DNA of 64,000 nucleotides from Pseudomonadota bacterium (lineage in GTDB: Bacteria > Desulfobacterota > Desulfobacteria > Desulfobacterales > Desulfolunaceae): assembly GCA_018818835.1 (NCBI GenBank), contig JAHIRD010000150.1, positions 1 through 64,000 on the forward strand, read 5' to 3'. Shown piece after piece: positions 5,426 through 64,000 of the stretch. The position numbers and the translations under genes are program-made. The notes under the pieces were generated by a model. That model worked only from the letters and a program-made list of their open reading frames with translations. It searched no databases and had not been told where the DNA came from. The stretch's first letter is position 1; the number at the start of each line of letters is the position of its first letter.

Positions 5426-5551
5426 TATGAGCATCCCCCCAAGGGGGATGCGAACCGTTTTATGCCTACAATAAATGAGGTTGTTCTATAAGCATAAACG
5501 TTCGAAAAAATAAATAAAATTAGGGTAAGGATAGCCGCTTCAAAGGTGAGC

Positions 5552-5770: not shown

Positions 5771-5821
5771 CAGTCCAATTTTTTGGACTGGACCAATCCC
5801 ATGGACCAAAATTTTGGACCA
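5771..5821 (+). promoter_or_regulatory. operator-like cluster: perfect palindrome plus three 13-bp-spaced TGGACCA repeats
   Basis: A perfect inverted repeat CAGTCCAA-TTTT-TTGGACTG spans 5771-5790. TGGACCA then occurs at 5789-5795, 5802-5808 and 5815-5821, exactly 13 bp apart. The last two enclose the 12-bp palindrome CCAAAATTTTGG (5806-5817). It lies about 155-205 bp before the permease start, the usual distance for activator sites of sigma-54 promoters. The divergent response regulator or an unlinked GntR-type lactate regulator could bind here (inference). Confidence 0.6.
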
Positions 5822-5904
5822 GGGGCCTGATTGTTCAATGAATCGTCGGCTTAAAAAATGGTATTGGGTTGAAATCACGGCACATTCAAAGTTATTATAA
5901 AACC

Positions 5905-5919
5905 TGGTACGGATCCTGA
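5905..5919 (+). promoter_or_regulatory. weak sigma-54-like -24/-12 candidate
   Basis: TGGTACG-N4-CTGA matches the -24 consensus TGGCACG in six of seven bases at correct spacing, but has GA instead of the -12 GC. It is placed well for the permease (start 5977) and for the upstream repeats at 5771-5821. Suggestive only. Confidence 0.3.
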
Positions 5920-5976
5920 AATGGAAAGGTGCATACAAGGCATAAACATCGTTCATTGAGGAAAAGGAGAAATATC

Positions 5977-7656
5977 GTGTCTCTTAGCTTGCTTGCATTA
6001 ATCGCGTTTGTACCCATTGCCATGGTCTTGGTTCTCATGGTGGGATTCAGGTGGCCTGCCACCAAAGCCATGCCACTGTCCTGGCTGGTTTGTGCTGTCA
6101 TCGGGGCAGGATTCTGGAAGATGCCGGCCGGCTTGATTGCGGCGTCCACATTGAGCGGTTTCGGAAGTGCCATCAACGTTCTTATTATAGTCTTCGGCGC
6201 TATTTTGATTCTGTACACCCTACGTGAAAGCGGAGCCATGGAAACAATTTCCTACGGATTCACCACCATCTCCCCGGACCGGCGTGTGCAGACCATCATC
6301 ATCGCCTTTTTGTTCGGGGCCTTTATCGAAGGGGCGGCCGGGTTCGGTACACCGGCAGCCATTGCAGCACCTCTGCTTTTGGGGCTGGGATTCCCGGCAC
6401 TTGCAGCGGTCTGTGTCTGCTTGATGTTCAACTCCATTCCCGTGACCTTCGGTGCCGTGGGCACCCCGATCTGGTTCGGCCTGAAAAATCTCCAAGCCAA
6501 TGTGGAACAAGCTGCCGGAAGCGGGGTCCCGACATTCGATGCCTTCCTTCAGAATGTGGGGGAATACGCCGCTCTGATCCATGGGGTCATGGCGATTCTG
6601 CTCCCCCTTTTCGCGATCTGTTTTCTGACCCGGTTCTTCGGGAAGAATAAATCATGGAGAGAAGGCCTGGGCGCCTGGAAATTTGCGGTGTTTGCCGGGC
6701 TTTGTTATGCCACGCCCTACCTGATCACCGCCTTTGCCTTTGGCTCGGAATTTCCATCGCTGGTGGGTGGTCTCATTGGTATGGCCCTTGCGGTGACCGG
6801 AGCCAAAAAGAAACTGTTTCTGCCAGAGGAAGTCTGGGATTTTGAAGACCGGTCAGCCTGGGAAAAGAACTGGGTCGGTGAAATCCAGCCCGGATCAAAT
6901 GATCTGAAACCCCAAATGAGCCAGCTGACAGCCTGGATGCCCTATATCCTCATTGCCGCACTTCTGGTTCTGACCCGGTTGAGCTTTCTGCCCTTCAAAG
7001 GCTGGGTAACCTCCTGGGTGATCTCTTTTTCACACATCCTGGGTTATGAATCCGTCAACTTTACCATGAAACCCCTGTATCTGCCGGGTGTGGTGCCCTT
7101 CATGCTGGTGGCTGTGATCACCATTTTTATTCACAAAATTCCGGGCAATAAGGTGGCTGTCGCCTGGAAAGATTCCATCGTCAAAATGAAAAACCCGGCC
7201 ATTGCCTTGTTCTTCGCCGTGGCCATGGTGGATATTCTCAAGCAGTCCGCACATGGTATGGCCGGTTATTCCTCCATGCCTCTGACCATGGCCGAGTTTG
7301 TGGCCGGTGTCACCGGGTCTGTCTGGCCCCTGGTGGCCTCATACGTCGGGGCCCTGGGTGCGTTTATCACCGGCTCCTGTACCGTGTCCAACCTGCTGTT
7401 CGCCAATTTTCAGTATGGGGTGGCTTCAACCATTGGTGCAAGTCACGAGATTATCGTGGCACTTCAGGCTGTGGGAGCGGCCATGGGCAATATGATCTGT
7501 GTCCATAACGTGGTTGCCGCTTCGGCCACCGTGGGCCTTGTGGGCATGGAAGGCACCATTATCCGAAGGACCCTGGTGCCCTGTCTGCTTTACGGGCTTG
7601 TGGCCGGAACCCTGGGCATGGTATTTATTTATATTCTGTTCCCGGGAACCTTCTAA
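5977..7656 (+). CDS. lctP: L-lactate permease, LctP family
   Basis: A 559-residue polytopic membrane protein of the LctP family (usual length about 550) that imports lactate, possibly glycolate, by ion symport. Many hydrophobic helices are visible, beginning [20 protein letters not shown]. Family-like segments include [36 protein letters not shown] and the C-terminal [18 protein letters not shown]. An upstream ATG at 5929 is in frame, but GTG at 5977 is chosen because AAGGAG lies seven bases before it and the added residues are highly basic. It is first in a three-gene operon; the dehydrogenase gene starts 19 bp downstream. Confidence 0.93.
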
Positions 7657-7675
7657 TAAAAAATGGAATGAACCT

Positions 7676-9058
7676 ATGATTTCAAAATCAATCATCAAAG
7701 AATTTGAGACGATATGCGGCAAAGACGGGGTGATGACCTCAGAGGTCGACCGTCAGAATTACTCCTACGATGCCGCTGTTCTGGACCCTGTGGTCCCGGC
7801 GGCCGTGGTTCGACCCGGAACCGGCGGGGAGATCGGAAAGATAGTTGCCCTGTGCAACGACAATTCCATCCCAGTGACCGTAAGGGGTGCCGGAACCAAC
7901 CTGTCCGGAGGAACCATTCCCATGGGAAATGGCATTGTGCTGTTGACCAATAGGATGAACCGGATCATCGAGCTGAACGACGTGGACATGTACGTGCGGG
8001 TGGAACCCGGAGTAGTCACAGCCACCCTGGCTGCCCAGGTGGCGTCCAGAGGGTTGTTTTACCCACCTGATCCGGGTAGCCAGGCAGTGTCCACCATTGC
8101 CGGTAACGTGGCTGAAAACGCTGGGGGGCTGCGGGGCCTTAAATACGGGGTCACCAAAGACTACGTCATGTCTATCGAGTTCTACGATGCCATGGGCAGG
8201 CGGGTGACATCCGGTTCTAAAACCGTCAAATGCGTCACCGGATACAATCTGGCCGGTCTTATGACCTCGTCCGAAGGCACCTTAGGGATATTCAGCGAAA
8301 TCACACTCAAGCTGATTCCACCGCCCCAGGCATCCAAGGCCATGATGGCCATCTACGACAGCGTGGAAGATGCCACCCAGACCGTGGCCGCCATCATCGC
8401 CGACAAGATCGTGCCCTGCACCCTGGAATTGATGGACAATTTCACCATCAACGCGGTGGAGGACTTCTCCAAAGCCGGTCTTCCCCGTGATGCCAAGGCC
8501 CTGTTGCTCATCGAGGTGGACGGCCATCCTGTCCAGGTAGCCGAGGACGGCGCCAAAGTCGAGGCGATTTGCCGGAAACTCGGAGCCCGTCATGTCCAGG
8601 TGGCCCAGAATGACGCGGAAAAGGCCAAGGTCTGGGAAGCCAGGCGTGCGGCCCTGTCTGCATTGGCCCGGCTCAAGCCTACCTTGGTTCTGGAGGACGC
8701 CACCGTTCCCCGGAGCAAGATTCCGGCCATGGTGTCAGCCATTGAAGGCCTGTCCAGAAAGTACAATCTGCCCATCGGCACCTTCGGTCATGCCGGAGAC
8801 GGCAACCTTCATCCCACCATCCTCACGGACCGGCGGGATAATGACCAGTGGCACCGGACGGAACGATGCGTCAGCGATCTGTTTGACGCGGCTCTTGCCC
8901 TGGGCGGCACCCTGTCCGGCGAGCATGGCATCGGCATTGCCAAGTCCGGGTTTCTGAAAAACGAGGTGGGGCAGTCGTCCATTGATTTTTCCCGGGCCAT
9001 GAAAGCTGCCATTGATCCCAACACCATTTTAAACCCAGGAAAAATCATAGGATGTTAA
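7676..9058 (+). CDS. glcD: FAD-binding D-lactate/glycolate dehydrogenase subunit (GlcD-like)
   Basis: A 460-residue flavoprotein of the FAD-linked oxidase family that oxidises D-lactate or glycolate. The FAD_binding_4 domain (about 40-180) includes TVRGAGTNLSGGTIP and PPDPGSQAVSTIAGNVAENA. The C-terminal FAD-oxidase domain carries GHAGDGNLHPTIL and GGTLSGEHGIG. The frame is open upstream to 7499, but ATG at 7676 is the family start and lies after the permease stop. The Fe-S partner begins one base after its stop codon. With lctP upstream, D-lactate is the favoured substrate (inference). Confidence 0.93.
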   Translation: MISKSIIKEFETICGKDGVMTSEVDRQNYSYDAAVLDPVVPAAVVRPGTGGEIGKIVALCNDNSIPVTVRGAGTNLSGGTIPMGNGIVLLTNRMNRIIELNDVDMYVRVEPGVVTATLAAQVASRGLFYPPDPGSQAVSTIAGNVAENAGGLRGLKYGVTKDYVMSIEFYDAMGRRVTSGSKTVKCVTGYNLAGLMTSSEGTLGIFSEITLKLIPPPQASKAMMAIYDSVEDATQTVAAIIADKIVPCTLELMDNFTINAVEDFSKAGLPRDAKALLLIEVDGHPVQVAEDGAKVEAICRKLGARHVQVAQNDAEKAKVWEARRAALSALARLKPTLVLEDATVPRSKIPAMVSAIEGLSRKYNLPIGTFGHAGDGNLHPTILTDRRDNDQWHRTERCVSDLFDAALALGGTLSGEHGIGIAKSGFLKNEVGQSSIDFSRAMKAAIDPNTILNPGKIIGC

Positions 9059-51889: not shown

Positions 51890-52351
51890 CTAATGAGCTG
51901 TGATACGCAAGGTGCCATGAACATCAACAACCATATGCCCTATATACACGGTGCCCATGGAATTTCCTGCGCCGATATCGGTTCCCAGACGGATCGTTGT
52001 GGAAAAGTTTTTGATATCCATAATCGGTCCGTCCAGAGTGCATTCATACCCCATGGCTCCGTTGTTGTCTACAATCCTGGTGGTCATTGAAGGATCAATG
52101 CCCATGGTTCCTTCATACTTTGTATCAGCAAAGCTGATATAACCGCTGCCACTACCGCCGAAAAAATATGTTCCGGTTTCATTGTCGCGGTTTATCTGAA
52201 CAATACCCAGCATATCTGAAAAGCCAGCCTGGGCTGTGATTTGATCCAATTCTTCATCAGACATGTGGGTCATCTTTGCAAAACCTGATGAAGGAAGTGC
52301 AAACAGACATAGTGCACATACAATTGTTGTAAGATAACGAAGCTTTCTCAT
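51890..52351 (-). CDS. secreted Fil-like paralogue under four cyclic-di-GMP riboswitches
   Basis: A 153-residue secreted protein. The signal peptide (LTTIVCALCLFALPSSGFA) is followed by KMTHMSDEELDQITAQAGFS, the double-glycine-leader-like motif shared by five other proteins in this locus. The mature part is Gly- and beta-rich (GTYFFGGSGSGYISFADTKY), ending VDVHGTLRITAH. ATG at 52351 follows AAAGGAG; an extra nine-residue extension to 52378 is unlikely. The four GEMM-I aptamers at 52381-52717 lie in its leader, so expression should follow cyclic di-GMP. Likely a surface or fibre component (inference). Confidence 0.75.
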   Translation of the reverse strand: MRKLRYLTTIVCALCLFALPSSGFAKMTHMSDEELDQITAQAGFSDMLGIVQINRDNETGTYFFGGSGSGYISFADTKYEGTMGIDPSMTTRIVDNNGAMGYECTLDGPIMDIKNFSTTIRLGTDIGAGNSMGTVYIGHMVVDVHGTLRITAH

Positions 52352-52380
52352 GGCGAACTCCTTTCTGTGTTGTTTCAACA

Positions 52381-52448
52381 GGTAACCCGGCTATCCTCAA
52401 TGATGAAGGACCCGTGGCTTTCCGTCCCAGGGTTACCCCTGGTTTGGC
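52381..52448 (-). promoter_or_regulatory. GEMM-I cyclic-di-GMP riboswitch, copy A (gene-proximal)
   Basis: Read on the minus strand: GCCAAACCAGGG-GTAA-CCCTGGGAC, then GGAAAGCCACGGGTCCTTC and AGGATAGCCGGGTTACC. P2 (CCAGGG/CCCTGG) is closed by a GNRA loop, and P3 carries the ACGGG receptor and the GCCGGGTTACC 3' strand of the class. The aptamer ends 29 nt before the start codon. Between lie a small hairpin TGTTGAAACAACA and the Shine-Dalgarno AAAGGAG, which suggests translational control. Confidence 0.88.
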
Positions 52449-52456
52449 GCATAGGA

Positions 52457-52525
52457 GGCGACCCGGCTGTCCTTTTTTGAGAAAGGATCCGTGGCTTTCC
52501 GTCCCAGGGTTACCCCTGGTTTGGC
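52457..52525 (-). promoter_or_regulatory. GEMM-I cyclic-di-GMP riboswitch, copy B
   Basis: Same fold: GCCAAACCAGGG-GTAA-CCCTGG, GGAAAGCCACGGATCC and GGACAGCCGGGTCGCC. It is preceded by TTAG, giving the best match to the AGG that precedes the conserved CAAACC in the class. Eight nucleotides separate it from copy A. Confidence 0.88.
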
Positions 52526-52569
52526 CTAATATACTCAATGACAGTTAATAAAATAAAAACGTGTTAACA

Positions 52570-52638
52570 GGCGACCCGGCTGTCCTTTTTTGAGAAAGGA
52601 CCCGTGGCTTTCCGTCCCAGGGTCACCCCTGGTTTGGC
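52570..52638 (-). promoter_or_regulatory. GEMM-I cyclic-di-GMP riboswitch, copy C
   Basis: Same fold with P2 loop GTGA instead of GTAA, still GNRA, showing conservation of structure over sequence. 44 nt separate it from copy B and 10 nt from copy D. Confidence 0.88.
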
Positions 52639-52648
52639 TTTGTTGTGA

Positions 52649-52717
52649 GGCAACCCGGCTATCCTTTTTGAAAAAAGGACCCGTGGCTTTCCGTCCCAGG
52701 GTTACCCCTGGTTTGGC
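52649..52717 (-). promoter_or_regulatory. GEMM-I cyclic-di-GMP riboswitch, copy D (promoter-proximal)
   Basis: Same fold: GCCAAACCAGGG-GTAA-CCCTGG, GGAAAGCCACGGGTCC and AAGGATAGCCGGGTTGCC. First in the transcript. An imperfect inverted repeat (52742-52787) lies just upstream. Confidence 0.88.
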
Positions 52718-52741
52718 AGCATGCGCTTCGTCACTCTTTTA

Positions 52742-52787
52742 CCCATGCCATTTGTTTTCGCGATATTTCAGAAAAAAAATGGCATGG
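52742..52787. repeat. imperfect inverted repeat upstream of the riboswitch array
   Basis: CCATGCCATTTGTTTTC pairs with GAAAAAAAATGGCATGG. It may end transcription from the operon ending at 52999 or lie near the promoter of the riboswitch transcript. Role unknown. Confidence 0.4.
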
Positions 52788-52998
52788 TTAACCTTGATGT
52801 CAAAGAACATTTTAAGATGGATTAAGACCGTAACCCGACAGATAATAAATGTGTCAATCCAATTAAACGTATCGGAATTTTGGGTGAGGAACTGAAGCGA
52901 AATCCATGGATTTTTTTTTGACTGTAAAAAAAGTTTGGGGGCGTATAGCCAGGAGGAACGCGAATATCCGGTTGATCGGGAAACCACGCCCCATTGTG

Positions 52999-54534
52999 TT
53001 ATTCAGAGATATGAACCTCGGCAATTAAGAATTCAGGGCCCTTTTCAGCTTGCAAGGCAAGGGTGTGAAACGATGCGGGTGAGGTAAACACGATGGGGAC
53101 GTTTTTTACAAAACCTTTATACCGGTCCTTGCATTCGGTTGTGTCCACCACCATGAACCATTTTTCATCACGGAAAGCCTGATAGGCCAGGTGCTGTCCA
53201 TCGGGGCTGAACCCGATCATTCCGATTTTTTCATACCTGTTAATTTCCACGTCATCCAGCACCATGATGGTTGTGTCGCCCTGTTTAGACACATAGGCCA
53301 GGTGTCGACTGTCCGGACTGAACAGAAACATGGAAATGGAATCGTATGGTTTTTTTTCCTGATTGTTAATGATCATAAACTGCTTGTCACCACGTTTTGC
53401 TTTATACGCGATGATTGAGGAGTCTGGGCTGAACGTGGGCAGGGAAACGGAATCATATTCCTTTCCTTCGGTGTTGTCCGCAAAGACAATGGATGATTCG
53501 GTTGATCCCCCCACATAAGCGAATCGTGATGAGTCCGGACTGAAATTGTAGGGGCCGATATTTTTGACCCAGGGGCCTTTTTTGTCGTTTACGACAATAC
53601 AGCTTTTTTTCCCTGTGTAGGCTGAATAGATAAACCGTTTGGAATCAGGACTGAAAAACGGTTGGCTTACAGCCTGGAAGGATTTCTGAGGAGATTCATC
53701 CACGACCACAAGATGTTTTTCACCGGTTTTAGCAACATAGATCAGATGCTGGGAATCCGGGCTAAAGGAAAGGGTGAGGATGTCGTCATAGGCTTTTAAG
53801 GTCTGATTGTCTTTGACCACAAACCAGGTATTGTTTTTTTTGGCCAGATAGCAGAAATGATTGGAATCCGGGCTGAATAAAGGTGATTTTATTTCATCAA
53901 AGGGTTCGCACTCCTTGTCGTTCAGGACCATAACCCATGATTTGTTTTTATAAACAAGGTAGGCAATCTGTTTGGAGTTCGGACTGAACATGGGATAGCC
54001 TGATCCGAAAATTCCTTCGTATTCCGGTCCTTTTTTACCGTCTGTGATCACAAAATATTTTTTATTCCGATCTCGTGCAAGATAGGAGGTTCGCTTGGAG
54101 TCAGGGCTGAAAAAAATAGTGGCAATGGCATCATAGGCCTCGCTGACCTTTTCATCGATTACGGCATGGGACGCATTGCCCTTGCGGGCAATATAGGCAA
54201 GCCGTGTGCCATCCGGACTGAATATGGGCCCGATTTTGCTGATGGTGTCGAATACAGGGCCGATATGGCCGTTTCTGAATATGGAAATTCCGGTTTTTTC
54301 ACCTGTGGCTTTCATGGCAAAGGACACCGAGTTGACCAGGGGAAAATTGGTGGTCAGGGTTGAGGGAAAAATGGTTGTTCCGTTTTCAAGGGAGCCGATA
54401 AGGGTTTTTGTTTCACTGAGTTTCAATAAGGGTTTTCTGGGTGGTGATGTTTCTGCCGTGGCCCCTATGCACAGGCCATTGAGAATGAGAAAGATGACAA
54501 GGAATACGAGAATGGGGGTCTTTTTTTTGATCAT
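52999..54534 (-). CDS. secreted beta-propeller protein with ten FSPDS repeats
   Basis: A 511-residue secreted protein. Signal peptide MIKKKTPILVFLVIFLILNG. Ten repeats of about 40 residues contain FSPDS/FSPDG followed by a Y-(L/V/I)-A strand, for example FFSPDSKRTSYLA, LFSPDSNHFCYLA and GFSPDGQHLAYQA, as in TolB/PD40 propeller blades. Such domains scaffold protein contacts in the periplasm. ATG at 54534 gives a clean signal peptide; the frame is open to 54615. Last gene of the C39 peptidase operon, 73 bp after the FadL-like gene. Confidence 0.82.
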   Translation of the reverse strand: MIKKKTPILVFLVIFLILNGLCIGATAETSPPRKPLLKLSETKTLIGSLENGTTIFPSTLTTNFPLVNSVSFAMKATGEKTGISIFRNGHIGPVFDTISKIGPIFSPDGTRLAYIARKGNASHAVIDEKVSEAYDAIATIFFSPDSKRTSYLARDRNKKYFVITDGKKGPEYEGIFGSGYPMFSPNSKQIAYLVYKNKSWVMVLNDKECEPFDEIKSPLFSPDSNHFCYLAKKNNTWFVVKDNQTLKAYDDILTLSFSPDSQHLIYVAKTGEKHLVVVDESPQKSFQAVSQPFFSPDSKRFIYSAYTGKKSCIVVNDKKGPWVKNIGPYNFSPDSSRFAYVGGSTESSIVFADNTEGKEYDSVSLPTFSPDSSIIAYKAKRGDKQFMIINNQEKKPYDSISMFLFSPDSRHLAYVSKQGDTTIMVLDDVEINRYEKIGMIGFSPDGQHLAYQAFRDEKWFMVVDTTECKDRYKGFVKNVPIVFTSPASFHTLALQAEKGPEFLIAEVHISE

Positions 54535-54607
54535 GATAGAAATACCTGAAAACCATGCCGTACATGGTTGGATGAGAAAAACCGAATCGGTCAGACTTTG
54601 AAACATG

Positions 54608-56347
54608 TTAATCAAAAGGATTCAGTTTGCTGAATATGTTTTTTATACTGTCCATACTGTCGCTGGCCATGGATACCATGATCTCAAGGGGCATTGTTGC
54701 GCTGACTGATCCGATGTATACCTTGGTTTCCTGAAAATAGTCAAGGCCTACAAAGGGGTTGTACACGGGTCGTGTCCACTCATTGGAGTTCATCTGAAGG
54801 CTTGAGTTGTTGGGGACAGTGAATGACTTGTTGAATATATAGGCAAATCCCAGGTCCAATTCAATACCGTTATCCATTTTTATGCCCAGTCCGGTTCCGA
54901 TGTTATGGAGGTCCGGCAGTGAATACAGGCCGTCATAGTATTCGGCTCTGACCGATGTGGGACGCATTTCATATCCCAGCCTGAATGTAAGCCAGTCCGT
55001 GGGAAGGTATTCAATGGCGGTGCTCCAGTGAAGGGTGTTTTTGAAATGACGCTGGAGGACCATCTGGTTTGGAGATTCACCGTAACCCATGATATTTACG
55101 AGCCGTAATACACTGATCTGCTGATCAAAAACAAATCGGTCTTCCTGGATAATGGACCAGTCTGCCCAATGGACGTCAAAAAGATATTTGAATTGAGCAA
55201 GGGGTTGAAGTTTGACACCGAACTGAACCCGTTGGGGATAGTTAAGTGATGTGGATGAACAGTATCCGTACTGATCCTCACCGCTGGTGGGCAGGTTCAG
55301 CATGGTGGCCCCGATGGGAACGACCACGCCCTGGCTCATCCAGTTCATCATGGCGGTGAATTGGGGACTGTGTTGAACACTGAATCGTCCGGTCATTTGA
55401 AGTTTGACTTCGCTCTGGTAGCAGAGACCCATGGATAACCAGTTTTTCGGCTCCCAGAGGAGGCCCACATTGTACGAGGGTGAAAAATCATCACGGAGTG
55501 AAAGAGAAATCTGGGCCACCTTATCATAGGGGGCAACACCACCCCCAAACCAGGGGGAGGGCAGGGTCAGTTCGGATATAATTGGAATTTCAAGCCCCTG
55601 GGTCGCCTCACCCAGAATACGGGTCAGGGCGATCATATCACTGGGAGACCGCATATCCATCTTTGCGATGGTGGCGGTTTGCCCCATGCCGATGGACAGA
55701 CCCACGGACAGGTTATCATCAATTTTATAGCTTGCTGACGGCGCAGCATAAATGAGATGTTGTTGAACAACGGATTTGGATGCAAATCGAAGGGGGTCGT
55801 CGTCCTTGTCATGGGTCAGCCCCACGGCAAAGGGGGCATAGGATCCCACGGCAAACGTCCATTTGGAATCGGGTTCCCGTGTGGACAGACCGATGGTGGG
55901 GCCGAAGAGAAAGGGAATGGTATCATTATAAATAGGAATATACATCAATGGCCCTGAGGTTCCTTCGGTGCCTGCAAGGGGATCCCTCTTGGTCGGGTCA
56001 GAGGCGTTGGGGCCCCAGCCGCCCATAAAATCTTCGGCATCCGGATCGGCTTCGAGCCGTGTGTTGATGAGAATGACAGGAATACTCACGCCCATGATCA
56101 TTGTTTTACCATCTCTGAGATGGGAAAGTCCGGCCGGATTGTAATGAATGGCCATGATTCCCGGCGGATCTGCCGTACAGGTGTTGGCAAGGGATATGCC
56201 CTGTGTACAAATGGCCATTTGTTCATGGAAGACAGCAAAAACAGGAGAGGTGAAACATATAATGTATAAAATGATAGATACTGTTAACAATGACAAACGG
56301 TGACGATTGGCGCTGTATCCTGAAAAAACCATCATATTCTGGCTCAT
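54608..56347 (-). CDS. FadL-like outer-membrane transport protein of the Fil-like locus
   Basis: A 579-residue outer-membrane barrel. The signal segment (LLTVSIILYIICFTSPVFA) precedes EQMAICTQGISLANTCTADP and GIMAIHYNPAGLSHLRDGKT, the FadL/toluene-X N-terminal signature. Many amphipathic strands follow (WLTFRLGYEMRPTSVRAEYY). It could export or assemble hydrophobic or surface components. ATG at 56347 follows the upstream stop by eight bases with GAGAAAG as RBS. Second outer-membrane protein in the peptidase operon; longer than E. coli FadL (about 420-450 residues). Confidence 0.8.
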   Translation of the reverse strand: MSQNMMVFSGYSANRHRLSLLTVSIILYIICFTSPVFAVFHEQMAICTQGISLANTCTADPPGIMAIHYNPAGLSHLRDGKTMIMGVSIPVILINTRLEADPDAEDFMGGWGPNASDPTKRDPLAGTEGTSGPLMYIPIYNDTIPFLFGPTIGLSTREPDSKWTFAVGSYAPFAVGLTHDKDDDPLRFASKSVVQQHLIYAAPSASYKIDDNLSVGLSIGMGQTATIAKMDMRSPSDMIALTRILGEATQGLEIPIISELTLPSPWFGGGVAPYDKVAQISLSLRDDFSPSYNVGLLWEPKNWLSMGLCYQSEVKLQMTGRFSVQHSPQFTAMMNWMSQGVVVPIGATMLNLPTSGEDQYGYCSSTSLNYPQRVQFGVKLQPLAQFKYLFDVHWADWSIIQEDRFVFDQQISVLRLVNIMGYGESPNQMVLQRHFKNTLHWSTAIEYLPTDWLTFRLGYEMRPTSVRAEYYDGLYSLPDLHNIGTGLGIKMDNGIELDLGFAYIFNKSFTVPNNSSLQMNSNEWTRPVYNPFVGLDYFQETKVYIGSVSATMPLEIMVSMASDSMDSIKNIFSKLNPFD

Positions 56348-56355
56348 AATCTTTC

Positions 56356-57447
56356 TCAAAGTTTAAAGTCAAAAGGAATGCTGAAAGAGAACGTAAAATC
56401 AGAAGCCGAATTTGTAAGACCAATCCCAAGTGAGGTGCTGATCGTTCTTCTGGGTGAGATGCGCCAGCCCGTACCGATATTCAGAACCGCGGCCGTGGAC
56501 GTCCCGCTTGTGGATGTGACGCCACCGTTCCAGTAGTATTTGTATTTTGTTGAGTATGAGTAGCTGAAGCTGGTGTTCAACGATACGGTATAGGACAGGG
56601 CATAGGCCATACCCACCGATATCCCCAGGGTTTTTCCCGGAGAGACTTTTGTCAGAATGGTCTCGTTGCTTGTGGGGCCTTCCCGCCTCTGGCTGAGACT
56701 TGAGGCGTCAAGGGGATAATAGATGGATCCGCTGCCATAAACAAAAACTGGGTCAAGGGATTTGCTGGTTGAAAATCCGGCGGACAGTGAATAAAAACCC
56801 GACCCTGTGGACAGGGCGTTGTCCACATCGATTTTGTAGGGGCTTGTACCGGACGGAATGACAATGGACCCATTATAGATAAAGCTGAGGCTTTTTCCAT
56901 CTGATTTGCTGGGCTGCCATAATCCACCCAGGGATAAATCTCCGATGTCCGTTGTGTTCCGCTCATTGGACGTGGACCGCTGATCACTTTTGTAAATAAA
57001 CGGAACACTTGAGTTCAGGGTGATATTGTTTTTCAGCGCATACTTCATGATCACCGAGTTGGTGAGATTGTGGTTGCTGGAATGGTCCACCTGGGGCGAT
57101 GGTGAGAGGCTTTCAAGGATATCCGTCGAATTGTAACCATAGGTAAATCCATAGGTAAGTTCAAGGGAACCTTCCCTGGCAAGGGAATAATCCTGGCCTG
57201 CTGCGGTGAGAATTTCTTTTTCATGATCGGTCTGCTCATCCAGGGTTGCCTCAAGCTTGTTGCGGACATCGGCTTCTTCCCGCAGGCGGTTGATTTCTTC
57301 CTGAAGGGCCTCCATTTTCGAGCTCAGATCCTGCATGGTCATTACCGTGCCCGAGGACGTATCATAATCATTCTCGGCCAATGCCGGAACAACAAGCATC
57401 AAGACCATGTGGAAAACCAACATGAGTTTTTTAATGTGTGCAGCCAA
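56356..57447 (-). CDS. outer-membrane barrel with N-terminal coiled coil
   Basis: A 363-residue protein. The signal peptide (LMLVFHMVLMLVVPALAE) is followed by a coiled coil (MQDLSSKMEALQEEINRLRE) and a beta-barrel domain resembling phenol-degradation MetA-type transporters (LSLGGLWQPSKSDGKSLSFI). It ends in SFSIPFDFKL with a terminal hydrophobic/aromatic strand. The coiled coil could trimerise or span the periplasm. It lies 68 bp after the C39 peptidase gene and eight bases before the FadL-like gene. Confidence 0.75.
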   Translation of the reverse strand: MAAHIKKLMLVFHMVLMLVVPALAENDYDTSSGTVMTMQDLSSKMEALQEEINRLREEADVRNKLEATLDEQTDHEKEILTAAGQDYSLAREGSLELTYGFTYGYNSTDILESLSPSPQVDHSSNHNLTNSVIMKYALKNNITLNSSVPFIYKSDQRSTSNERNTTDIGDLSLGGLWQPSKSDGKSLSFIYNGSIVIPSGTSPYKIDVDNALSTGSGFYSLSAGFSTSKSLDPVFVYGSGSIYYPLDASSLSQRREGPTSNETILTKVSPGKTLGISVGMAYALSYTVSLNTSFSYSYSTKYKYYWNGGVTSTSGTSTAAVLNIGTGWRISPRRTISTSLGIGLTNSASDFTFSFSIPFDFKL

Positions 57448-57515
57448 TTACTTTCCTCCAACAGAGAATTATCGATGTTATGCTGTGAACCTTATATATA
57501 AAATACGATACACCA

Positions 57516-58265
57516 TTATGGTTTATAATACTGTCTGACCTCCGGGATTTCTTTGATCGCCTGATCAATATCAAGGGGTGTTCGTTCAATGATGTTGGGA
57601 TCCAAAAAGGTCATGGCCGTCTTTTCATCAATATAAAGAAGGTCTTCGGTCCTTAATTTCAAAGCATGGCTGGGTTTCCGGGCACTTGAGGATACAACGA
57701 ACATGACATTTTCGAACCAGAGTTCTTCAAATTGGGCCAGGGTGTAACTGCTGTGGCCCCTCCATGGATCAGCGATGAAAATATGACCTTGGTGAACCCC
57801 TTTGACCACAACAAAATGTCTGTATTCGAAAATTTTGATGGGAACGATACAGGGCCAGAATTCCGAATCGGTCAGATCCTCAAGGTTGCCTTTGTAGCCG
57901 TTGGCCTCATAGCCCAGGGCATTAACGAATTTTTTCATATCCAAAAGGGAAAAGGCCCGTCTTTGTTTGATGCGCTCTGGATCTCCATATTGCAGCATAC
58001 CGTGGATAACTTGTTTTTCGCTGAAATTTTCACCCAGGTAATATCTCAGAATTGTGGCAAGTGCCGCAGATCCACAGCTGTAATCATAGGATTGCTTGAT
58101 AATCCGGTCTGTCTGAAAGTCAGACAGAGGTTTGATTGTGTGCCGAGTTGCGAGACTTGGGCCGGTTCCCGTTTCGATAAGCCATTCTCCTTTTGGCGTG
58201 GGGCTTATGGGGTGAAAACTACTGAATATTGCTATACCAATAACAAAAGCAATAAGCACATGCAT
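57516..58265 (-). CDS. C39-family (double-glycine leader type) peptidase, membrane-anchored or periplasmic
   Basis: A 249-residue cysteine peptidase. The N-terminus (MHVLIAFVIGIAIFSSF) is a TM or signal segment, which points to a periplasmic catalytic domain. The triad is complete: oxyanion Gln58 and Cys64 in QSYDYSCGSAALATILRYYL, His150 in FEYRHFVVVKG and Asp166 in IFIADPWRG. C39 domains cleave double-glycine leaders, usually inside ABC exporters. Here there is no ABC fusion. A stand-alone C39 peptidase beside Fil-like proteins is known in gammaproteobacterial fil loci (FilB). Six nearby secreted proteins carry a leader-like motif. A TAAACA-T-TGTTTT site lies at 58394-58406. Confidence 0.85.
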   Translation of the reverse strand: MHVLIAFVIGIAIFSSFHPISPTPKGEWLIETGTGPSLATRHTIKPLSDFQTDRIIKQSYDYSCGSAALATILRYYLGENFSEKQVIHGMLQYGDPERIKQRRAFSLLDMKKFVNALGYEANGYKGNLEDLTDSEFWPCIVPIKIFEYRHFVVVKGVHQGHIFIADPWRGHSSYTLAQFEELWFENVMFVVSSSARKPSHALKLRTEDLLYIDEKTAMTFLDPNIIERTPLDIDQAIKEIPEVRQYYKP

Positions 58266-58393
58266 GTTTTATAGCTCCGTGACTTCTTCAGCACAGGCAG
58301 ACAAGCCCCATGGAAGAATAATCATAATTGCAATTCAAACCATAAATCACATGGCGTATTGCATGTTAATCGGGGGAACCAAATTGATTTGTG

Positions 58394-58406
58394 TAAACAT
58401 TGTTTT
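58394..58406. promoter_or_regulatory. operator-like site 1 (TAAACATTGTTTT)
   Basis: Near-palindrome TAAACA-T-TGTTTT, 128 bp before the C39 peptidase gene. Matches five other sites in this locus. Confidence 0.55.
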
Positions 58407-58653
58407 ATCCATCCAATATCAGGGATTTGAACGATTGTAAAGTAAAAATGGCTTATAATTTATCAGTTTGGGAATTATTCATGATGTTAAAAAAAGAAGG
58501 GGTTCCCCAGGCCCGGGAAAAAAGAAGGGTTTTTATAAACCCACAGCCAAAATGGAAATGGAGATAACGAAGAAACGGTTCAACGAGATTGATTAATGAA
58601 CTTGAAAAAAGTCAACGGATGGATGGCCATGGAAAAAGGTCCATAGGCAAGGC

Positions 58654-58745
58654 ATAGTGTTTGGCCGGGCGTGAAGGCATACTCGAGCGTATGTCGAAAG
58701 GTCCGGCCAAACACTATAACGCCGCATATGGGACTCGACGCCATC
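58654..58745. repeat. cruciform repeat element
   Basis: Perfect 13-bp arms AGTGTTTGGCCGG (58654-58666) and CCGGCCAAACACT (58701-58713) enclose a second palindrome CATACTCGAGCGTATG (58676-58691). The right flank TATAACGCCGCATATGG to TCCTAATTT recurs at 51780-51820. It lies at the 3' end of the 58746-59675 gene. Confidence 0.75.
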
Positions 58746-59675
58746 CTAATTTGCAGTGATGAATATGTTACCACCATTGATCGTGGTGTTGCCCCCTGTC
58801 ATTGAAAACGATCCCAGGGTCTGGTTCCTATCGGGAGGGAGGTGGGCATTGTCATGTTGCGTCCATGGACGTGTGCTGTTCGACATCCTGACCTGGAAGT
58901 TTACGTCCATGCGAGCGACCAGATGATTCAATGAAATATGAACATAACGTTCGCCATCCGGGATTATCAGATATTCCGTAACGTGGGTAAGGGGATCAAT
59001 CGTCTTGATGACGGGTGTCCATAAGGTGTTCGCACCGGTTCCGCGGGGTAGAAGAATCGCCATGCTCCCATCCACTGCTTTTCCGGTGGTGATGGTCTGA
59101 CGATTGGGATAAATCGTAAAGGTTTGTTCTGTCTGGGTGATCTCGTCAGAGGAAAAAACGTGGCCCTGATAGCTGCACAGATAATTACCTGTCAGACCCT
59201 CGGGCAAATCAATGCGTGCCCGTGAGATCGTCACGTCTTTGGTTGGAACATTCGGATTATTGTCAAAAAATTCCGGAACACGAGTTTGGCCTTTGAGAGT
59301 CCCTTCAAAGACAACAAAGGAATACATGCCATTGGCAGCATTTTCCGTTTGATAAACCACATTTTCAACAAAGGCATTCGCGTAAAAAATCTCCCGGTAA
59401 ACATAGCCGAATTCATCCTGGGCATCACGCCCGATAAATTCTATGGTTACGGTCTGGTGAACTCCGTTTGTGCCTTGGGAATACGAACTCATTTCCTGAT
59501 CTGTCTGGATTGCGGGAAAGAAGATGTCCTGTCCGATAAAGGCAGGGTTGTCACTGACGGCCTTGCCGGATATCTTGTCCAGTGATTCATTTGACAGCTG
59601 TTCGAGGCTGCTTGCCGATAAGGACGAAAGAATCAAGGCAACCACAATGTAAATACAGACAGCAGGTCGTTTCAT
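58746..59675 (-). CDS. secreted Fil-like paralogue, 309 aa
   Basis: The signal peptide (VCIYIVVALILSSLSASS) is followed by LEQLSNESLDKISGKAVSDN, the leader-like motif of this locus, with K in place of Q. The body is beta-rich (HQTVTIEFIGRDAQDEFGYV). The end, NQTLGSFSMTGGNTTINGGN then IFITAN, matches the end of the 61623-62180 protein (QTLGSFYQNTTGNTTIVGSV). An operator-like site lies 38 bp upstream (59713-59725). Probably a surface component with a conserved C-terminal assembly motif (inference). Confidence 0.75.
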   Translation of the reverse strand: MKRPAVCIYIVVALILSSLSASSLEQLSNESLDKISGKAVSDNPAFIGQDIFFPAIQTDQEMSSYSQGTNGVHQTVTIEFIGRDAQDEFGYVYREIFYANAFVENVVYQTENAANGMYSFVVFEGTLKGQTRVPEFFDNNPNVPTKDVTISRARIDLPEGLTGNYLCSYQGHVFSSDEITQTEQTFTIYPNRQTITTGKAVDGSMAILLPRGTGANTLWTPVIKTIDPLTHVTEYLIIPDGERYVHISLNHLVARMDVNFQVRMSNSTRPWTQHDNAHLPPDRNQTLGSFSMTGGNTTINGGNIFITAN

Positions 59676-59712
59676 TCATTGCTCCCGGTCACGAAAATAC
59701 TATTATTGATAA

Positions 59713-59725
59713 TAAACATTGTTTA
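59713..59725. promoter_or_regulatory. operator-like site 2 (TAAACATTGTTTA)
   Basis: Perfect palindrome TAAACA-T-TGTTTA, 38 bp before the 309-residue paralogue. Confidence 0.6.
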
Positions 59726-59851
59726 GTGAATGGTAGCAGAGTCAAATTATACGGTCAATAAAAAAAATAGTGCTGGAAGTATTAGGCTATGAATTGCCTG
59801 AAAATTAGAAATAAGAGCAGCTATATATAAGGTTGTTCTATTGTCTTGACC

Positions 59852-60475
59852 TTATGCAGGGATTCCTTTTTTAAATATTTTAGCAATAAGGGTTACAAGC
59901 AGATGAATGTGTTCTTCTGCATTCTCAATGTCTTTGCCCGGATAATTTCTGAAGGTCATCAAGGTGCCCATGACGGCCGAGATGAAGGCATGGGATAAGG
60001 TCCGGTCAGGATCTTCGATTCCGGCTATGTTAAGGACCTGGATGATTTTGTCGATAAAGGCGGTTTGAAGGGCCTGGAAACGGGTGAGCAAGTAGTCGGG
60101 CATGTTTCCCTTGATCATCAGATAGCTCATCATCTGAAAGGTCGCCTGGTTATGGATCAGGTGGTCGACAATGGCTTTGGCCATGTCCTCAAGGGGTTCG
60201 GCCGGGGGCATGTGGCTTGCTTCCGCCAGGGTTTCCTGAAAAACAGTACGAATGGCTGAAAGGTCCTTGATAAACGCTTCCATAAACAGTTCTTCCTGGC
60301 TGGGAAAGTACCTGTAAATAGCCGCAGGGGACACACCTGCTTCAGCGGCAATATCACGCATACCTATTTCATCAAAGGGCTTCTGCTCGAAAAGCTTTAA
60401 AACAGCTTCCAGGATAAGGTTCTTTCGAGCTTCCCGTTCATCTTCCCTGAGTTGTTTGAGGATTGAACTTGACAC
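59852..60475 (-). CDS. TetR/AcrR-family regulator
   Basis: A 207-residue repressor. The N-terminal HTH is IGMRDIAAEAGVSPAAIYRY followed by FPSQEELFMEAF (about 36-70). The C-terminal helical ligand pocket is divergent. Two operator-like sites, 60514-60526 and 60533-60545, lie just before its own gene, and similar sites precede neighbouring genes on both sides. It is the only transcription factor in the Fil-like locus, so local autoregulated control is likely (inference). Ligand unknown. Confidence 0.9.
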   Translation of the reverse strand: MSSSILKQLREDEREARKNLILEAVLKLFEQKPFDEIGMRDIAAEAGVSPAAIYRYFPSQEELFMEAFIKDLSAIRTVFQETLAEASHMPPAEPLEDMAKAIVDHLIHNQATFQMMSYLMIKGNMPDYLLTRFQALQTAFIDKIIQVLNIAGIEDPDRTLSHAFISAVMGTLMTFRNYPGKDIENAEEHIHLLVTLIAKIFKKGIPA

Positions 60476-60513
60476 ATCATGATCCTTTTTTTGGTGTTAT
60501 TTAAAAAAAGTAA

Positions 60514-60526
60514 ATAACATAGTTTA
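60514..60526. promoter_or_regulatory. operator-like site 3 (ATAACATAGTTTA)
   Basis: 39 bp before the TetR gene. It is part of a wider inverted repeat GTAAA-N8-TTTAC (60510-60527). Confidence 0.5.
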
Positions 60527-60532
60527 CGCATA

Positions 60533-60545
60533 TAAACAATAGTTA
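60533..60545. promoter_or_regulatory. operator-like site 4 (TAAACAATAGTTA)
   Basis: 19 bp from site 3, about two helical turns, the arrangement expected for paired repressor dimers. Confidence 0.45.
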
Positions 60546-60758
60546 TTGAAATTGTTTTTAAAAATTAAGGGAGGCTGAGCGGGAATATAAGGACTAATTA
60601 GCTGAATTTGAAATGGAAAAATATTTTAATAAAATCATAATATTTGATGAAATATACATGAATAATATCCTGAAATCAACATATTAACGGATGTTTTAAA
60701 AAAATTTATTATACACTTGACAAAGATATGCGGATGTGCAAATTTATTTTAAAACATG

Positions 60759-60771
60759 TAAACAATGTTCG
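60759..60771. promoter_or_regulatory. operator-like site 5 (TAAACAATGTTCG)
   Basis: 104 bp before the 60875 gene and downstream of a TTGACA at 60717. Confidence 0.5.
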
Positions 60772-60874
60772 TTCTATTTTTGATTGTTATTTGATGTTTT
60801 CTGGTAAGGAACATTCGGGATATTTATTTCTTGAATAACCTGACCATAACGAATCATAAGACACGGGATCGTGA

Positions 60875-61423
60875 ATGAAACACGTATTTTTTTTAATTTT
60901 ACTGGTGATCATACCCGCATCCTGTCTTGCGATTGAAGAGATGAATGACAATGACCTGAACATGGTAACAGCCCAGGACGGTGTCACGGTGATTCTTGAA
61001 GATTTCAAGATTACCCATCATATGGGGCTGATGTCCATTGGTGGCGAAGACGGTCTTGGAATACCCTCTGCACCTGAAGGGGCGTGGTTTGTTTTTGACA
61101 GCACCCGCATTCTTGAGTTGAATGTTGAACGGGGCTGTTTTGATATTGATGCGCTGACAACAGGTGCTTCCGGCTATGATCTGGGTGCCCATGGGGATTC
61201 CATCGCCGGAAACACATCGTCTGTATTGATCAGTTTTAATGAGGCTTATTTCCATATCAATATGACGGACGCGCTGCTCACGCTAAAATTCGCGAACAAC
61301 CCCCAGGGACTTCCCGGAGACGGTGTGACAACATTTTCTGACACGGTATGCAATTTTGCCTTGAACGGATCAACCATCACCATCAAAAGTGATGATGCTA
61401 AAATGTTTATTTTCCCCCATTGA
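60875..61423 (+). CDS. secreted Fil-like paralogue, 182 aa
   Basis: The signal peptide (FFLILLVIIPASCLA) is followed by IEEMNDNDLNMVTAQDGVTV, the shared leader-like motif, and then ILEDFKITHHMGLMSIGGED. The end is FALNGSTITIKSDDAKMFIF then PH, a weaker form of the C-terminal pattern GNTTI...IYPH. First gene of the plus-strand group of paralogues. Operator-like site 5 lies upstream. No family name was recognised with certainty; DUF6160/FilA-like is the closest impression. Confidence 0.75.
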   Translation: MKHVFFLILLVIIPASCLAIEEMNDNDLNMVTAQDGVTVILEDFKITHHMGLMSIGGEDGLGIPSAPEGAWFVFDSTRILELNVERGCFDIDALTTGASGYDLGAHGDSIAGNTSSVLISFNEAYFHINMTDALLTLKFANNPQGLPGDGVTTFSDTVCNFALNGSTITIKSDDAKMFIFPH

Positions 61424-61622
61424 TGAACGCATATTTCTTTTATGTGGCAATATATAACAATGTTTATAGATTTAAATGGTGTTTGTTCCAGTGAAATAGC
61501 CCAACTCCGACGGCTTTGGATTGCAGAAAGATCGATGGCCGGTAATGTTAAGGATTCGGTATGTTGCCTCTGGAAAATATGTACAATCAGTGTTACTAAC
61601 GTAAATTGATGAGGAGGAATGT
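61424..61622 (+). promoter_or_regulatory. leader of the 185-aa paralogue, with operator-like site
   Basis: Operator-like site 6 (ATAACAATGTTTA) lies at 61454-61466. Between 61485 and 61560 is GC-richer sequence (AGCCCAACTCCGACGGCTTT, then GGATTGCAG and GATGGCCGGTAATG) unlike the AT-rich surroundings. It may be a structured RNA leader. I do not recognise a class, and it is not a GEMM aptamer by eye. Confidence 0.35.
61454..61466. promoter_or_regulatory. operator-like site 6 (ATAACAATGTTTA)
   Basis: Near-palindrome of the same type as sites 1-5, 157 bp before the 61623 gene. Confidence 0.5.
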
Positions 61623-62180
61623 ATGAAAAAATTAGTATTGATTGCTGTCCTGTTACTTGTACCCTTCACGGCCTTTGCACTTGATTCCATGAATGATTCA
61701 GCCCTGGATGAAATGACTGCCCAGCAAGGGGTCACCATTACATTTGATGGTGTCGTCGTTACCCAGGGTGTTTCCGATTTTTCCTGGGGAGATGGAGATG
61801 GACTTGGCGGAACTACAGCGGCCGGTTATCTTTTCCTGGAAGAAAGTGGTGCAGGAACGACTGTTTCTCTTGATGGAACAAGTATGACAATTGATGTTGC
61901 GACTGCAGGCGTCGGTGGTTATATTGTTGTACCCGATGGACCCGATGCTGATACGGATCCCGATCTTGCCATTGCTGAAGGCACAACGTTTGTTGCCATC
62001 GGCCTTCCCTCAGTCACCGTGGGTGCGGCTGCAAAAACAACAACTGTTTCACTTATTTCAGCGGCTCCGACTGCAGCGACAGTTCCTACTGCGGCTCAGA
62101 CCCTGGGATCTTTTTATCAGAATACAACGGGAAATACGACCATTGTAGGAAGTGTTTATATTTACCCGCATGTAAACTAG
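61623..62180 (+). CDS. secreted Fil-like paralogue, 185 aa
   Basis: The signal peptide (MKKLVLIAVLLLVPFTAFA) is followed by LDSMNDSALDEMTAQQGVTI, the leader-like motif, then TFDGVVVTQGVSDFSWGDGD. The end, QTLGSFYQNTTGNTTIVGSV then YIYPHVN, shares its pattern with the 58746-59675 protein. GAGGAGG precedes the ATG. The GDGDGLGG stretch aligns with IGGEDGLG in the 60875 protein, supporting common descent. A strong terminator follows at 62195-62226. Confidence 0.78.
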   Translation: MKKLVLIAVLLLVPFTAFALDSMNDSALDEMTAQQGVTITFDGVVVTQGVSDFSWGDGDGLGGTTAAGYLFLEESGAGTTVSLDGTSMTIDVATAGVGGYIVVPDGPDADTDPDLAIAEGTTFVAIGLPSVTVGAAAKTTTVSLISAAPTAATVPTAAQTLGSFYQNTTGNTTIVGSVYIYPHVN

Positions 62181-62194
62181 GTATCATGTCTTAA

Positions 62195-62226
62195 ATGGTA
62201 AGGGGCACATGGGTGCCCCTTACCAT
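62195..62226. terminator. strong hairpin terminator after the 185-aa paralogue
   Basis: ATGGTAAGGGGCAC-ATGG-GTGCCCCTTACCAT, a 14-pair perfect stem 15 bp after the stop, followed by a short GTTT. Confidence 0.75.
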
Positions 62227-62354
62227 GTTTAATGAATTTTGAAGGATTAATGTATATGGATTTAAAGTTTTATATCTTGATTCACGATATAATGTATATG
62301 AATCCTGGTATAAGTTTTTAAGTCTATTATTTACCCATAGTGCCGGAAATGTTT

Positions 62355-63674
62355 ATGAAGAATGTCATCATGATCGTATCACTTGTGGGCTGGCTCTTGG
62401 GCTTTCCACTGAATGCATTTCCCATTCATAATCTTTCGGAAAACGAACTGGGTGAAATCACCGGACAGGATGGTGCGACATTTATCCTTCAGGATTTTGA
62501 TTTTTTTATTATCAGCCCGGGTATAGAATATCTTGCCACCCATGTTGGACCCTTTGATCCTCCGGCAGACCCCAAACCCGACAATCAACGTGGAACCATA
62601 GCCCTGACCGACCTGTTGATCAGTGATGGTAACAACGGCCCGGTTATCATGTCCACGAATCTGGACTGGGATATATACAGCCAGAATTTTGGGGAACTGG
62701 AATATAATTATGCCAGATTTTCTTTTTATAATACGAGTGTTACCATGGATCTCGATGTGGGAGATATCGCCATTTCGCCCGTGGATCCCAATAATCCCAG
62801 AAATCCCAATGATCCAACCGATGTTCTTCCCACGGCCAGTCTGGGCGGAGCCCATATCAACGGATTGTCCATTGATGAATTGACTGTATATCTTGGAGCT
62901 GCATCCAATAATACAGGCATGGCCGGCGAAATTGATTTGAGACTTCAGGCTGAATCCATGACTGTGGATGCATTCAGGCATCTGGGCAACGATACACCGG
63001 TTATCCTTGAAAATATCATGGTGGCCGGCTATTTTACAGGGTCAGAGCCGGATTACGACAGATCCTTACCCCTTCCGTATACGACCATACCCGGTATATG
63101 GTCACCTGCGCGTGCGGCTGACTATGCGGACGGGAATGCCGCCTATGAGCAACAATTGCTGGCAGCCAACCGGTTTGTTCCTGACCCCTCATCCTGGGTG
63201 CCCCACGGGGCTTTGAAAATTGGTGATGTGGAAAACGGGAATCCCTTGAGAATGGATTTTACGGTGGATAGGAATTATTATATTCCCTTCCCTTACGATA
63301 TTGTATCCGGTGAACCGTCCCAGGATAGCCGTGTGGAATGGTTTGAAGCAACGTCCGGTGATTTTTTCACCGATGCCAGGGGCTGGAGAGATGGAAAAGA
63401 TAATTACCTTCAGGATGGCACCCATTACAACCCCATAAAAAATCCACGATACAACAAATCGTATATCTCCATTGATACGCCCATTTCAGGTTCCTTGCGA
63501 ATCGGTGCTCCGGGGGGGGATATTGTTATGGTTGACGGGATTGATCTCCAGATCCATGCGGAGATTCCCGGATACGGTTATGGCAATACGCCCAACTCCA
63601 TACCACGGCCCTATCCGGATCCTGATCTTGCACCGCCCCAATACGACGAACCCTTTCAATCACAATGGCAATAG
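62355..63674 (+). CDS. secreted Fil-like paralogue, 439 aa
   Basis: The signal peptide (MIVSLVGWLLGFPLNAFP) is followed by IHNLSENELGEITGQDGATF, the leader-like motif. The long body has beta-rich segments (NFGELEYNYARFSFYNTSVT), a Pro/Asn-rich repeat (PVDPNNPRNPNDPTDVLP) and an end without the TLGSF/GNTTI pattern (PPQYDEPFQSQWQ). GTG at 62340 and ATGs at 62349 and 62355 are possible starts; no strong RBS decides. The next paralogue starts eight bases after its stop. Confidence 0.72.
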   Translation: MKNVIMIVSLVGWLLGFPLNAFPIHNLSENELGEITGQDGATFILQDFDFFIISPGIEYLATHVGPFDPPADPKPDNQRGTIALTDLLISDGNNGPVIMSTNLDWDIYSQNFGELEYNYARFSFYNTSVTMDLDVGDIAISPVDPNNPRNPNDPTDVLPTASLGGAHINGLSIDELTVYLGAASNNTGMAGEIDLRLQAESMTVDAFRHLGNDTPVILENIMVAGYFTGSEPDYDRSLPLPYTTIPGIWSPARAADYADGNAAYEQQLLAANRFVPDPSSWVPHGALKIGDVENGNPLRMDFTVDRNYYIPFPYDIVSGEPSQDSRVEWFEATSGDFFTDARGWRDGKDNYLQDGTHYNPIKNPRYNKSYISIDTPISGSLRIGAPGGDIVMVDGIDLQIHAEIPGYGYGNTPNSIPRPYPDPDLAPPQYDEPFQSQWQ

Positions 63675-63682
63675 GATCTTTG

Positions 63683-64000
63683 ATGAATAAGAGACACGGT
63701 CACATAATATACCTGCTGATTGCGAATGTTGTTTTGTTTTTCATTATAGCGGGGCAGACCATGGCCGGTATGGAGATCATGAGTGATGATGAACTGGCAG
63801 CACTTGACGGCCAGTTTTCATCGGTGACCATTGATTCGTTTTATAATGAAAATGATACGGTTCGGATATTTTTAGACCTTCATCTTGAGGTCTATGGGAC
63901 CATTGATTCTGTCAAAGCCGGTTACTATTACCGCGATGCTGCAAGCATGCGGACAAACATGGCACAGATCGGTATGTCGGGCTTTCAGCAGTTTTATGAT
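63683..64000 (+). CDS. secreted Fil-like paralogue, cut by the right window edge
   Basis: An open frame of 106 codons runs to the window end. The signal peptide (YLLIANVVLFFIIAGQTMA) is followed by GMEIMSDDELAALDGQFSSV, the leader-like motif, then TIDSFYNENDTVRIFLDLHL. It starts eight bases after the previous paralogue's stop, so the two form an operon. The group may continue beyond the window. Confidence 0.72.
   Translation, partial: MNKRHGHIIYLLIANVVLFFIIAGQTMAGMEIMSDDELAALDGQFSSVTIDSFYNENDTVRIFLDLHLEVYGTIDSVKAGYYYRDAASMRTNMAQIGMSGFQQFYD

Follow-up and report, generated by a model that had tools for sequence, protein, structure and literature searches.

What does a C39 peptidase read and cut when it is encoded apart from any ATP-binding cassette (ABC) exporter, amid genes for secreted proteins with bacteriocin-like leaders? 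We address this question for a window of 64,000 nucleotides (positions 1 to 64,000 of contig JAHIRD010000150.1, assembly GCA_018818835.1, from a Desulfolunaceae bacterium). The stretch 51890-64000 encodes a Fil-type system: filB (the C39 peptidase), filC (a FapF-like barrel), and filD (a FadL-like protein), accompanied by six proteins tagged with a common leader. The first-pass annotation had tied Sec-exported proteins with a C39-type leader to a periplasmic C39 peptidase, and both gene linkage and co-occurrence across genomes agree with that proposal. We consider it probable that this is Fil-type secretion in which the cargo carries two successive signals, the second being a pro-leader processed by FilB—the tagged proteins are likely the previously unidentified targets of the periplasmic C39 peptidase class. 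The tagged genes and filB are arranged as follows:

51890-52351, minus strand: tagged protein 1 (DUF6160-like), leader MSDEELDQITAQ at 52229-52264
57516-58265, minus strand: FilB, stand-alone C39 peptidase with N-terminal membrane segment (NF050078 3.4e-56; FapD 1.4e-33)
58746-59675, minus strand: tagged protein 2, 309 aa, not DUF6160, leader LSNESLDKISGK at 59562-59597
60875-61423, plus strand: tagged protein 3 (FilA/DUF6160-like), leader MNDNDLNMVTAQ at 60941-60976 (DUF6160 1.6e-4; FilA 2.3e-5)
61623-62180, plus strand: tagged protein 4 (FilA/DUF6160), leader MNDSALDEMTAQ at 61689-61724 (DUF6160 1.6e-9, above cut-off; FilA 2.7e-10)
62340-63674, plus strand: tagged protein 5, 444 aa, leader LSENELGEITGQ at 62433-62468
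63665-64000, plus strand: tagged protein 6, 359 aa, extending beyond the window end, leader MSDDELAALDGQ at 63779-63814

The six leader sequences noted earlier are all present, each behind a hydrophobic Sec-type segment, and they follow the 12-residue pattern φxxxx[LM]xxφx[GA][QK]. In the tagged proteins of FilB loci (80 distinct sequences), the leader of FilA type has L/M/I/V at -12, D/S/E/T at -11, D/E at -10, L/M at -7, V/I/T at -4, T/S at -3, G (80%) or A (20%) at -2, and Q (85%) at -1; at -12, -7, -4, -2, and -1 this is in part a consequence of the pattern used for anchoring. These positions are spaced (-12/-7/-4/-2) as in double-glycine leaders. Two hallmarks of such leaders, a hydrophobic residue at each of -12, -7, and -4 and G/A at -2, are found both here and in FapE, discussed below; the G/A/S expected at -1 is not, and the leader does not stand at the extreme N-terminus for export by an ABC/C39 transporter—a Sec signal precedes it, and the locus has no ABC gene. 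The earlier description of a double-glycine-like motif thus holds for the C39-type spacing but not for the double glycine itself: a plain double-glycine motif was rejected, because Fil-branch leaders have G or A at -2 and Q, K, or R at -1. A hidden Markov model of the motif, run on 80 FilB loci, placed 71 of its 82 matches (E<=0.01) within 3 kb of filB, and the top match in reversed control sequences had a whole-protein E of 0.2. In a low-confidence structural model of tagged protein 4, a signal helix is followed by a second helix over -10 to -1 (residues 25-34) and then by strands; in the LahT150 co-crystal, leader residues -4 to -11 are helical, and a hydrophobic groove accommodates -4, -7, and -12 (PMC6363468).

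The peptidase itself matches Pfam Peptidase_C39 at E=1.1e-19, and its catalytic residues Q58, C64, H150, and D166 are all in place behind a hydrophobic N-terminal segment (residues ~3-16), with no ABC transporter or exporter gene in the locus—the intact, exporter-less peptidase of the first-pass annotation is borne out. Its predicted C39 domain (pLDDT, the predicted local distance difference test, ~90) matches 6MPZ, the LahT150 structure, at TMt 0.81, and a profile search finds its nearest relatives of solved structure among double-glycine peptidases (6MPZ, 1.4e-18). Q58, H150, and D166 are unchanged throughout 134 FilB/FapD proteins. In two Desulfatibacillum-type loci (L055 and L056, from genomes G036 and G275), FilB carries a long Gly/Asn-rich repeat tail (NGYGNG) behind the peptidase domain. 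Neither the family name nor the stand-alone periplasmic C39 peptidase is new: NCBI models already call this family FilB, and FapD is a known example (PMC5557850). The novelty lies in recognizing the leader as a cargo tag that FilB and FapD systems share.

The distribution of tag and peptidase was compared across 571 genomes, with FilB called at E<=1e-50 in Desulfobacterota and at E<=1e-60 in Gammaproteobacteria. DUF6160 and FilB occur together in 20 genomes, DUF6160 without FilB in 3, and FilB without DUF6160 in 0 (pooled Fisher p ~4e-34, uncorrected for phylogeny in sampled genomes that share descent). In the 297 Desulfobacterota genomes, DUF6160 is found in 17 and FilB in 14, all of them within the 17 and spread over seven families; in the 274 Gammaproteobacteria genomes, the two occupy an identical set of six, and none of the 30 further genomes with a FapD-type C39 has DUF6160. 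At the level of individual loci, the stretch retrieved for each of 80 named FilB loci contains a tagged protein in 52 cases, usually encoded immediately upstream of filB, and none in 28. A whole-genome search that took in 26 of these 28 found DUF6160 elsewhere in 26/26, in 1 to 12 copies, and all 30 unlinked leaders inspected end in GQ; two genomes hold 15 and 17 scattered tagged proteins. The tag therefore probably acts in trans, and its link to FilB exceeds operon inheritance. We had considered the lack of filA beside filB in Marinobacter-type loci as counter-evidence, and rejected it on the same 26 genomes. The first-pass annotation had named a motif occurring mostly without C39 genes as grounds for abandoning its proposal; the motif does not occur in that way, with FilB in 20/23 DUF6160 genomes and DUF6160 in 26/26 extra FilB genomes.

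The home genome (6.75 Mb) repeats this association. A second Fil-type locus, on contig C122, has the same gene order and four additional tagged proteins, and 9/9 DUF6160 matches in the genome lie inside the two C39 loci; the sole further C39 domain found is in a 714-codon open frame, of ABC-type length. The second locus (L005, G000:C122:4001-24000) is a complete Fil-type locus and includes an LVIVD-repeat protein and an outer-membrane barrel.

The range of cargo behind the tag is wide. The six proteins had been described as secreted paralogues: they are a secreted, tagged set but not a single paralogous family, and that term is too strong because the leader is the only part that all six share, several having nothing else in common. 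BLAST at E<=1e-3 sorts the mature portions of 117 tagged proteins, taken from this locus and related ones, into 23 groups without any link between them, and short tagged proteins without a DUF6160 mature part occur in three genomes (G332, G460, and G573). On sequence grounds, the leader is portable between unrelated mature proteins. Among the FilA mature domains, many have a conserved acidic loop directly behind the first strands (alignment A4, near 'WGDxDG'), which possibly binds calcium. Two further proteins near filB that do not belong to the usual cargo set (L149:10599-11165 and L151:14860-15597) contain ALDDQDLKQVHGAG and LAEHELDAVTAQG.

The analysis took in FapD-type loci as well, since their C39 peptidases surfaced as weaker FilB matches. 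In most of them the gene that immediately follows fapD, in the FapE position, encodes a Sec signal and then a leader of the pattern L[ST]xxELxxLRG[GRK], with the -12/-7/-4/-2 spacing of bacteriocin leaders. Examples are LLKDEELDQIRGG and VPEEELGEVRGG, each followed by Y, VSNQELDQLRGG and LSDPELAQMRGR, each followed by F, and LTDPELAAQRGG in FapD locus L214; the curated FapE of Pseudomonas carbonaria (335.7 bits, cut-off 250) has the leader LSDQELSQLRGR, followed by F. Leaders at this position have R at -3 (95%), G at -2 (95%), and G (50%), R (31%), or K (13%) at -1. For the leaders of L059 and L062, weak sub-cut-off matches were all to double-glycine families (ComC, lantibiotics, BlpC, and bacteriocin_sig). 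The FapE and FilA profiles can be aligned (P=2e-5) across 16 columns; the match stops precisely at -1 and does not extend past it. Its score is 23.2, against a top of 11.8 in 100 column-permuted controls; because similar patterns anchored both sets, this match is supportive and not independent. Residues -3 to -1 track the peptidase branch (TGQ with FilB, RG[GRK] with FapD), which argues that the peptidase active site reads them. Similar leaders (VSDSVLHGVNGR, LSAQELGEVSGA, VPLTELESTRGQ, and LSADQLQEANGR) are present on further small exported proteins of fap loci besides FapE (L190:301-693, L199, L200, and L213), and one genome of the Gammaproteobacteria sample (G368) has seven FapD-like C39 genes.

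Published work on Fap bears directly on these leaders. FapD acts in the periplasm, its active-site Cys is needed for FapC secretion, and the C38A variant abolishes secretion (PMC5557850). The same 2017 paper found FapE to be the only Fap protein fully processed at its N-terminus, left the FapD target unclear, and stated that canonical C39 sequences are lacking in Fap proteins (PMC5557850); the FapE leader lies in a stretch absent from that paper's mass spectrometry.

In the mechanism that we propose, the Sec signal would bring the cargo to the periplasm and then be removed, and the exposed pro-leader (hydrophobic at -12, L/M at -7, hydrophobic at -4, G/A at -2, Q/K at -1) would fold as a helix. 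This helix would dock in the hydrophobic groove of membrane-anchored FilB, much as bacteriocin leaders do in ABC-linked C39 domains; FilB would most likely cut after -1 and free the mature subunit, which would exit via the FapF-like barrel FilC and become part of a fibre or matrix on the cell surface. The Fap amyloid system would offer the parallel, where FapD is the C39 peptidase, FapF the barrel, and FapE the cargo bearing an LRG[GRK] leader; FilA of Acinetobacter Tol 5 is reported to be a surface-fibre protein (PMC11784438). The earlier interpretation was largely right in direction, although anchoring of the proteins by FilB, its other suggestion, would be conjecture; FilB cleavage itself, along with the docking, the cleavage position, the export route, the final location, and FilA as fibre subunit, we infer.

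Several observations weigh against FilB as the processor of this leader. Known C39 peptidases cut at GG, GA, or GS, with a narrow pocket by the cut (PMC6363468), and the Q at -1 in most FilA leaders is unlike these sites; no published FilA N-terminus was found in the literature searched. FilB and FilC are always together in the genomes tested, and co-occurrence therefore cannot tell which of the two reads the leader. Conservation in the main FilA family extends beyond -1 (G at +2, I/V at +3), so that the mature FilA domain may account for some of the signal; the FilA model has a mean pLDDT of 61, which is low confidence; and the invariance of the active-site Cys is partly conditioned because Cys belonged to the search pattern. 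Lastly, three genomes (G032, G069, and G134) have DUF6160, with neither FilB nor FilC found in their assemblies. Judged by eye, the C39-profile matches in G069 and G134 are a short peptidase of unrelated type and a protein of ATPase type; the C39-profile search of G032 gave no match.

A rival account is that the leader is recognized without being cut: FilB would escort it, or it would dock to FilC or another component, and FilB would cut elsewhere, for example in the FilC linker. The unusual Q, the inseparability of FilB and FilC, and the use of inactive C39-like domains as chaperones in some ABC exporters all fit such an account, and Rouse et al. considered FapF too as a FapD target (PMC5557850). 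We nevertheless regard it as unlikely, given that Q58, H150, and D166 are invariant in the 134 proteins, that Cys-to-Ala exchange in FapD ends secretion and the FapE N-terminus is lost (PMC5557850), and that -3 to -1 vary with the peptidase branch, which is what one would predict for residues read by the active site.

The extended conservation at +2 and +3, and the fact that the Pfam DUF6160 model covers signal, motif, and next strand, would also suit a motif that is simply the structural start of the beta-rich DUF6160 mature domain, its C39-leader look accidental and FilB unrelated. The identical leader type on unrelated mature proteins makes this very improbable, as do FapE—the same leader with another mature part, and a profile similarity that stops at -1—and the presence of FilB in 20/23 DUF6160 genomes. 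Co-occurrence might instead reflect operon inheritance of a pilus system, with FilB never in contact with the leader, since filA adjoins filB in many loci and the sampled genomes are related by descent; we give this hardly any credence, because tagged proteins stand elsewhere in every one of the 26 genomes without linked filA and lie scattered in the two genomes with 15 and 17 of them.

The remaining genes of the locus, and five candidate operator sites, are as follows:

52999-54615, minus strand: PD40 beta-propeller protein, ending the filB-C-D run (PF07676 E=8e-25)
54608-56359, minus strand: FilD-type OmpP1/FadL outer-membrane protein (PF03349 2.7e-42; NF050080 FilD 1.7e-88)
56356-57447, minus strand: FilC-type outer-membrane barrel with N-terminal coiled coil, a FapF-like channel (NF050079 1.3e-59; FapF 3.8e-20)
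59852-60475, minus strand: TetR-family regulator (PF00440 1.5e-16)
58394-58406, plus strand: palindrome TAAACATTGTTT(T), candidate TetR operator, upstream of filB
59713-59725, plus strand: perfect palindrome TAAACATTGTTTA, upstream of tagged protein 2
60533-60545, plus strand: palindrome with 2 mismatches, upstream of tetR
60759-60771, plus strand: palindrome with 2 mismatches, upstream of tagged protein 3
61454-61466, plus strand: palindrome with 2 mismatches, upstream of tagged protein 4

The minus-strand run comprises filB, filC, filD, and the PD40 propeller, with overlaps of a few bases at filC/filD and filD/PD40; the propeller has a counterpart in the second locus (L005:5123-6628). Tagged protein 1 matches DUF6160 at E=9.4e-6 and 26.2 bits (cut-off 27), or 27.1 bits with neighbours in frame included. 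Relatives of tagged protein 2 adjoin filB in Desulfoluna and in one Desulfobacterales metagenome-assembled genome (L072, L073, and L074). Tagged protein 6 is complete, at 359 aa, in L004 (L004:1665-2744), and a seventh tagged protein lies beyond the window, at contig position 69987-70532. Adjoining the tagged genes are two large membrane proteins with TPR tails (L004:2873-5254 and 5428-7950), which by eye resemble TMTC-type glycosyltransferases; modification of the cargo might be conceivable.

The five copies of the palindrome TAAACAWTGTTTA, between 58394 and 61466, precede filB, tetR, and three tagged genes; the window has 7 matches against 2.1 expected, and the palindrome was looked for in the second locus and is absent there. 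The local TetR may jointly control cargo and peptidase genes.

The locus shares features with several known systems. Like the Acinetobacter Fil 'putative pilus system' (FilA-FilF; NCBIfam NF050077-NF050080), it has the families and order of filB, filC, and filD with FilA-like cargo, but it differs in the PD40 propeller at the filE position, the several cargo genes, and the two loci per genome. Against the NCBIfam Fil models, which are of 'exception' type, all curated cut-offs are missed by far (FilB 190.7/475 bits, FilC 202.5/630, FilD 297/970). The resemblance to Pseudomonas Fap (FapA-F) lies in the periplasmic stand-alone C39, the trimeric-barrel homologue (FilC matches the solved FapF structure 5o67 at E=1.4e-23), the Sec-exported cargo, and the FapE leader spacing. 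The cargo here is instead FilA/DUF6160 and others, not FapB/FapC, a family with no match among the scanned genes (no search aimed at amyloid repeats was made); residues -3 to -1 are TGQ, TAQ, or SGK, not RG[GRK]; a FadL-like protein and the PD40 propeller are added; and FilB has a membrane segment in place of a clear cleavable signal. With PCAT/AMS ABC transporters (LahT, PCAT1, ComA) the locus has peptidase fold and leader spacing in common, whereas here no ABC exporter is present, the leader follows a Sec signal and would reach the peptidase in the periplasm, the residue at -1 is Q, K, or R, and the cargo consists of larger proteins, not short peptides.

The PEP-CTERM/exosortase and GlyGly-CTERM/rhombosortase systems mark numerous Sec-exported proteins, unrelated and scattered, with a short tag that is matched to one dedicated protease. 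The present system is alike in its short tag on many unrelated proteins and its one matched protease; in contrast, its tag is N-terminal and its protease is a C39 cysteine peptidase. A broader reading, which to us is evenly balanced between true and false, is that of general periplasmic sorting: a portable pro-leader behind the Sec signal would direct many unlinked and structurally unrelated proteins, of which a sampled genome has up to 17, into a single FilB/FilC machine, with two dialects of the tag, FapD-FapE (RG[GRK]) and FilB-FilA (TGQ), side by side in some Pseudomonas. If FilB does process the leader as we propose, the bacteriocin leader code would be reused across the inner membrane, for surface proteins, and DUF6160—a large family annotated as 'unknown'—would become cargo with a defined protease and channel.

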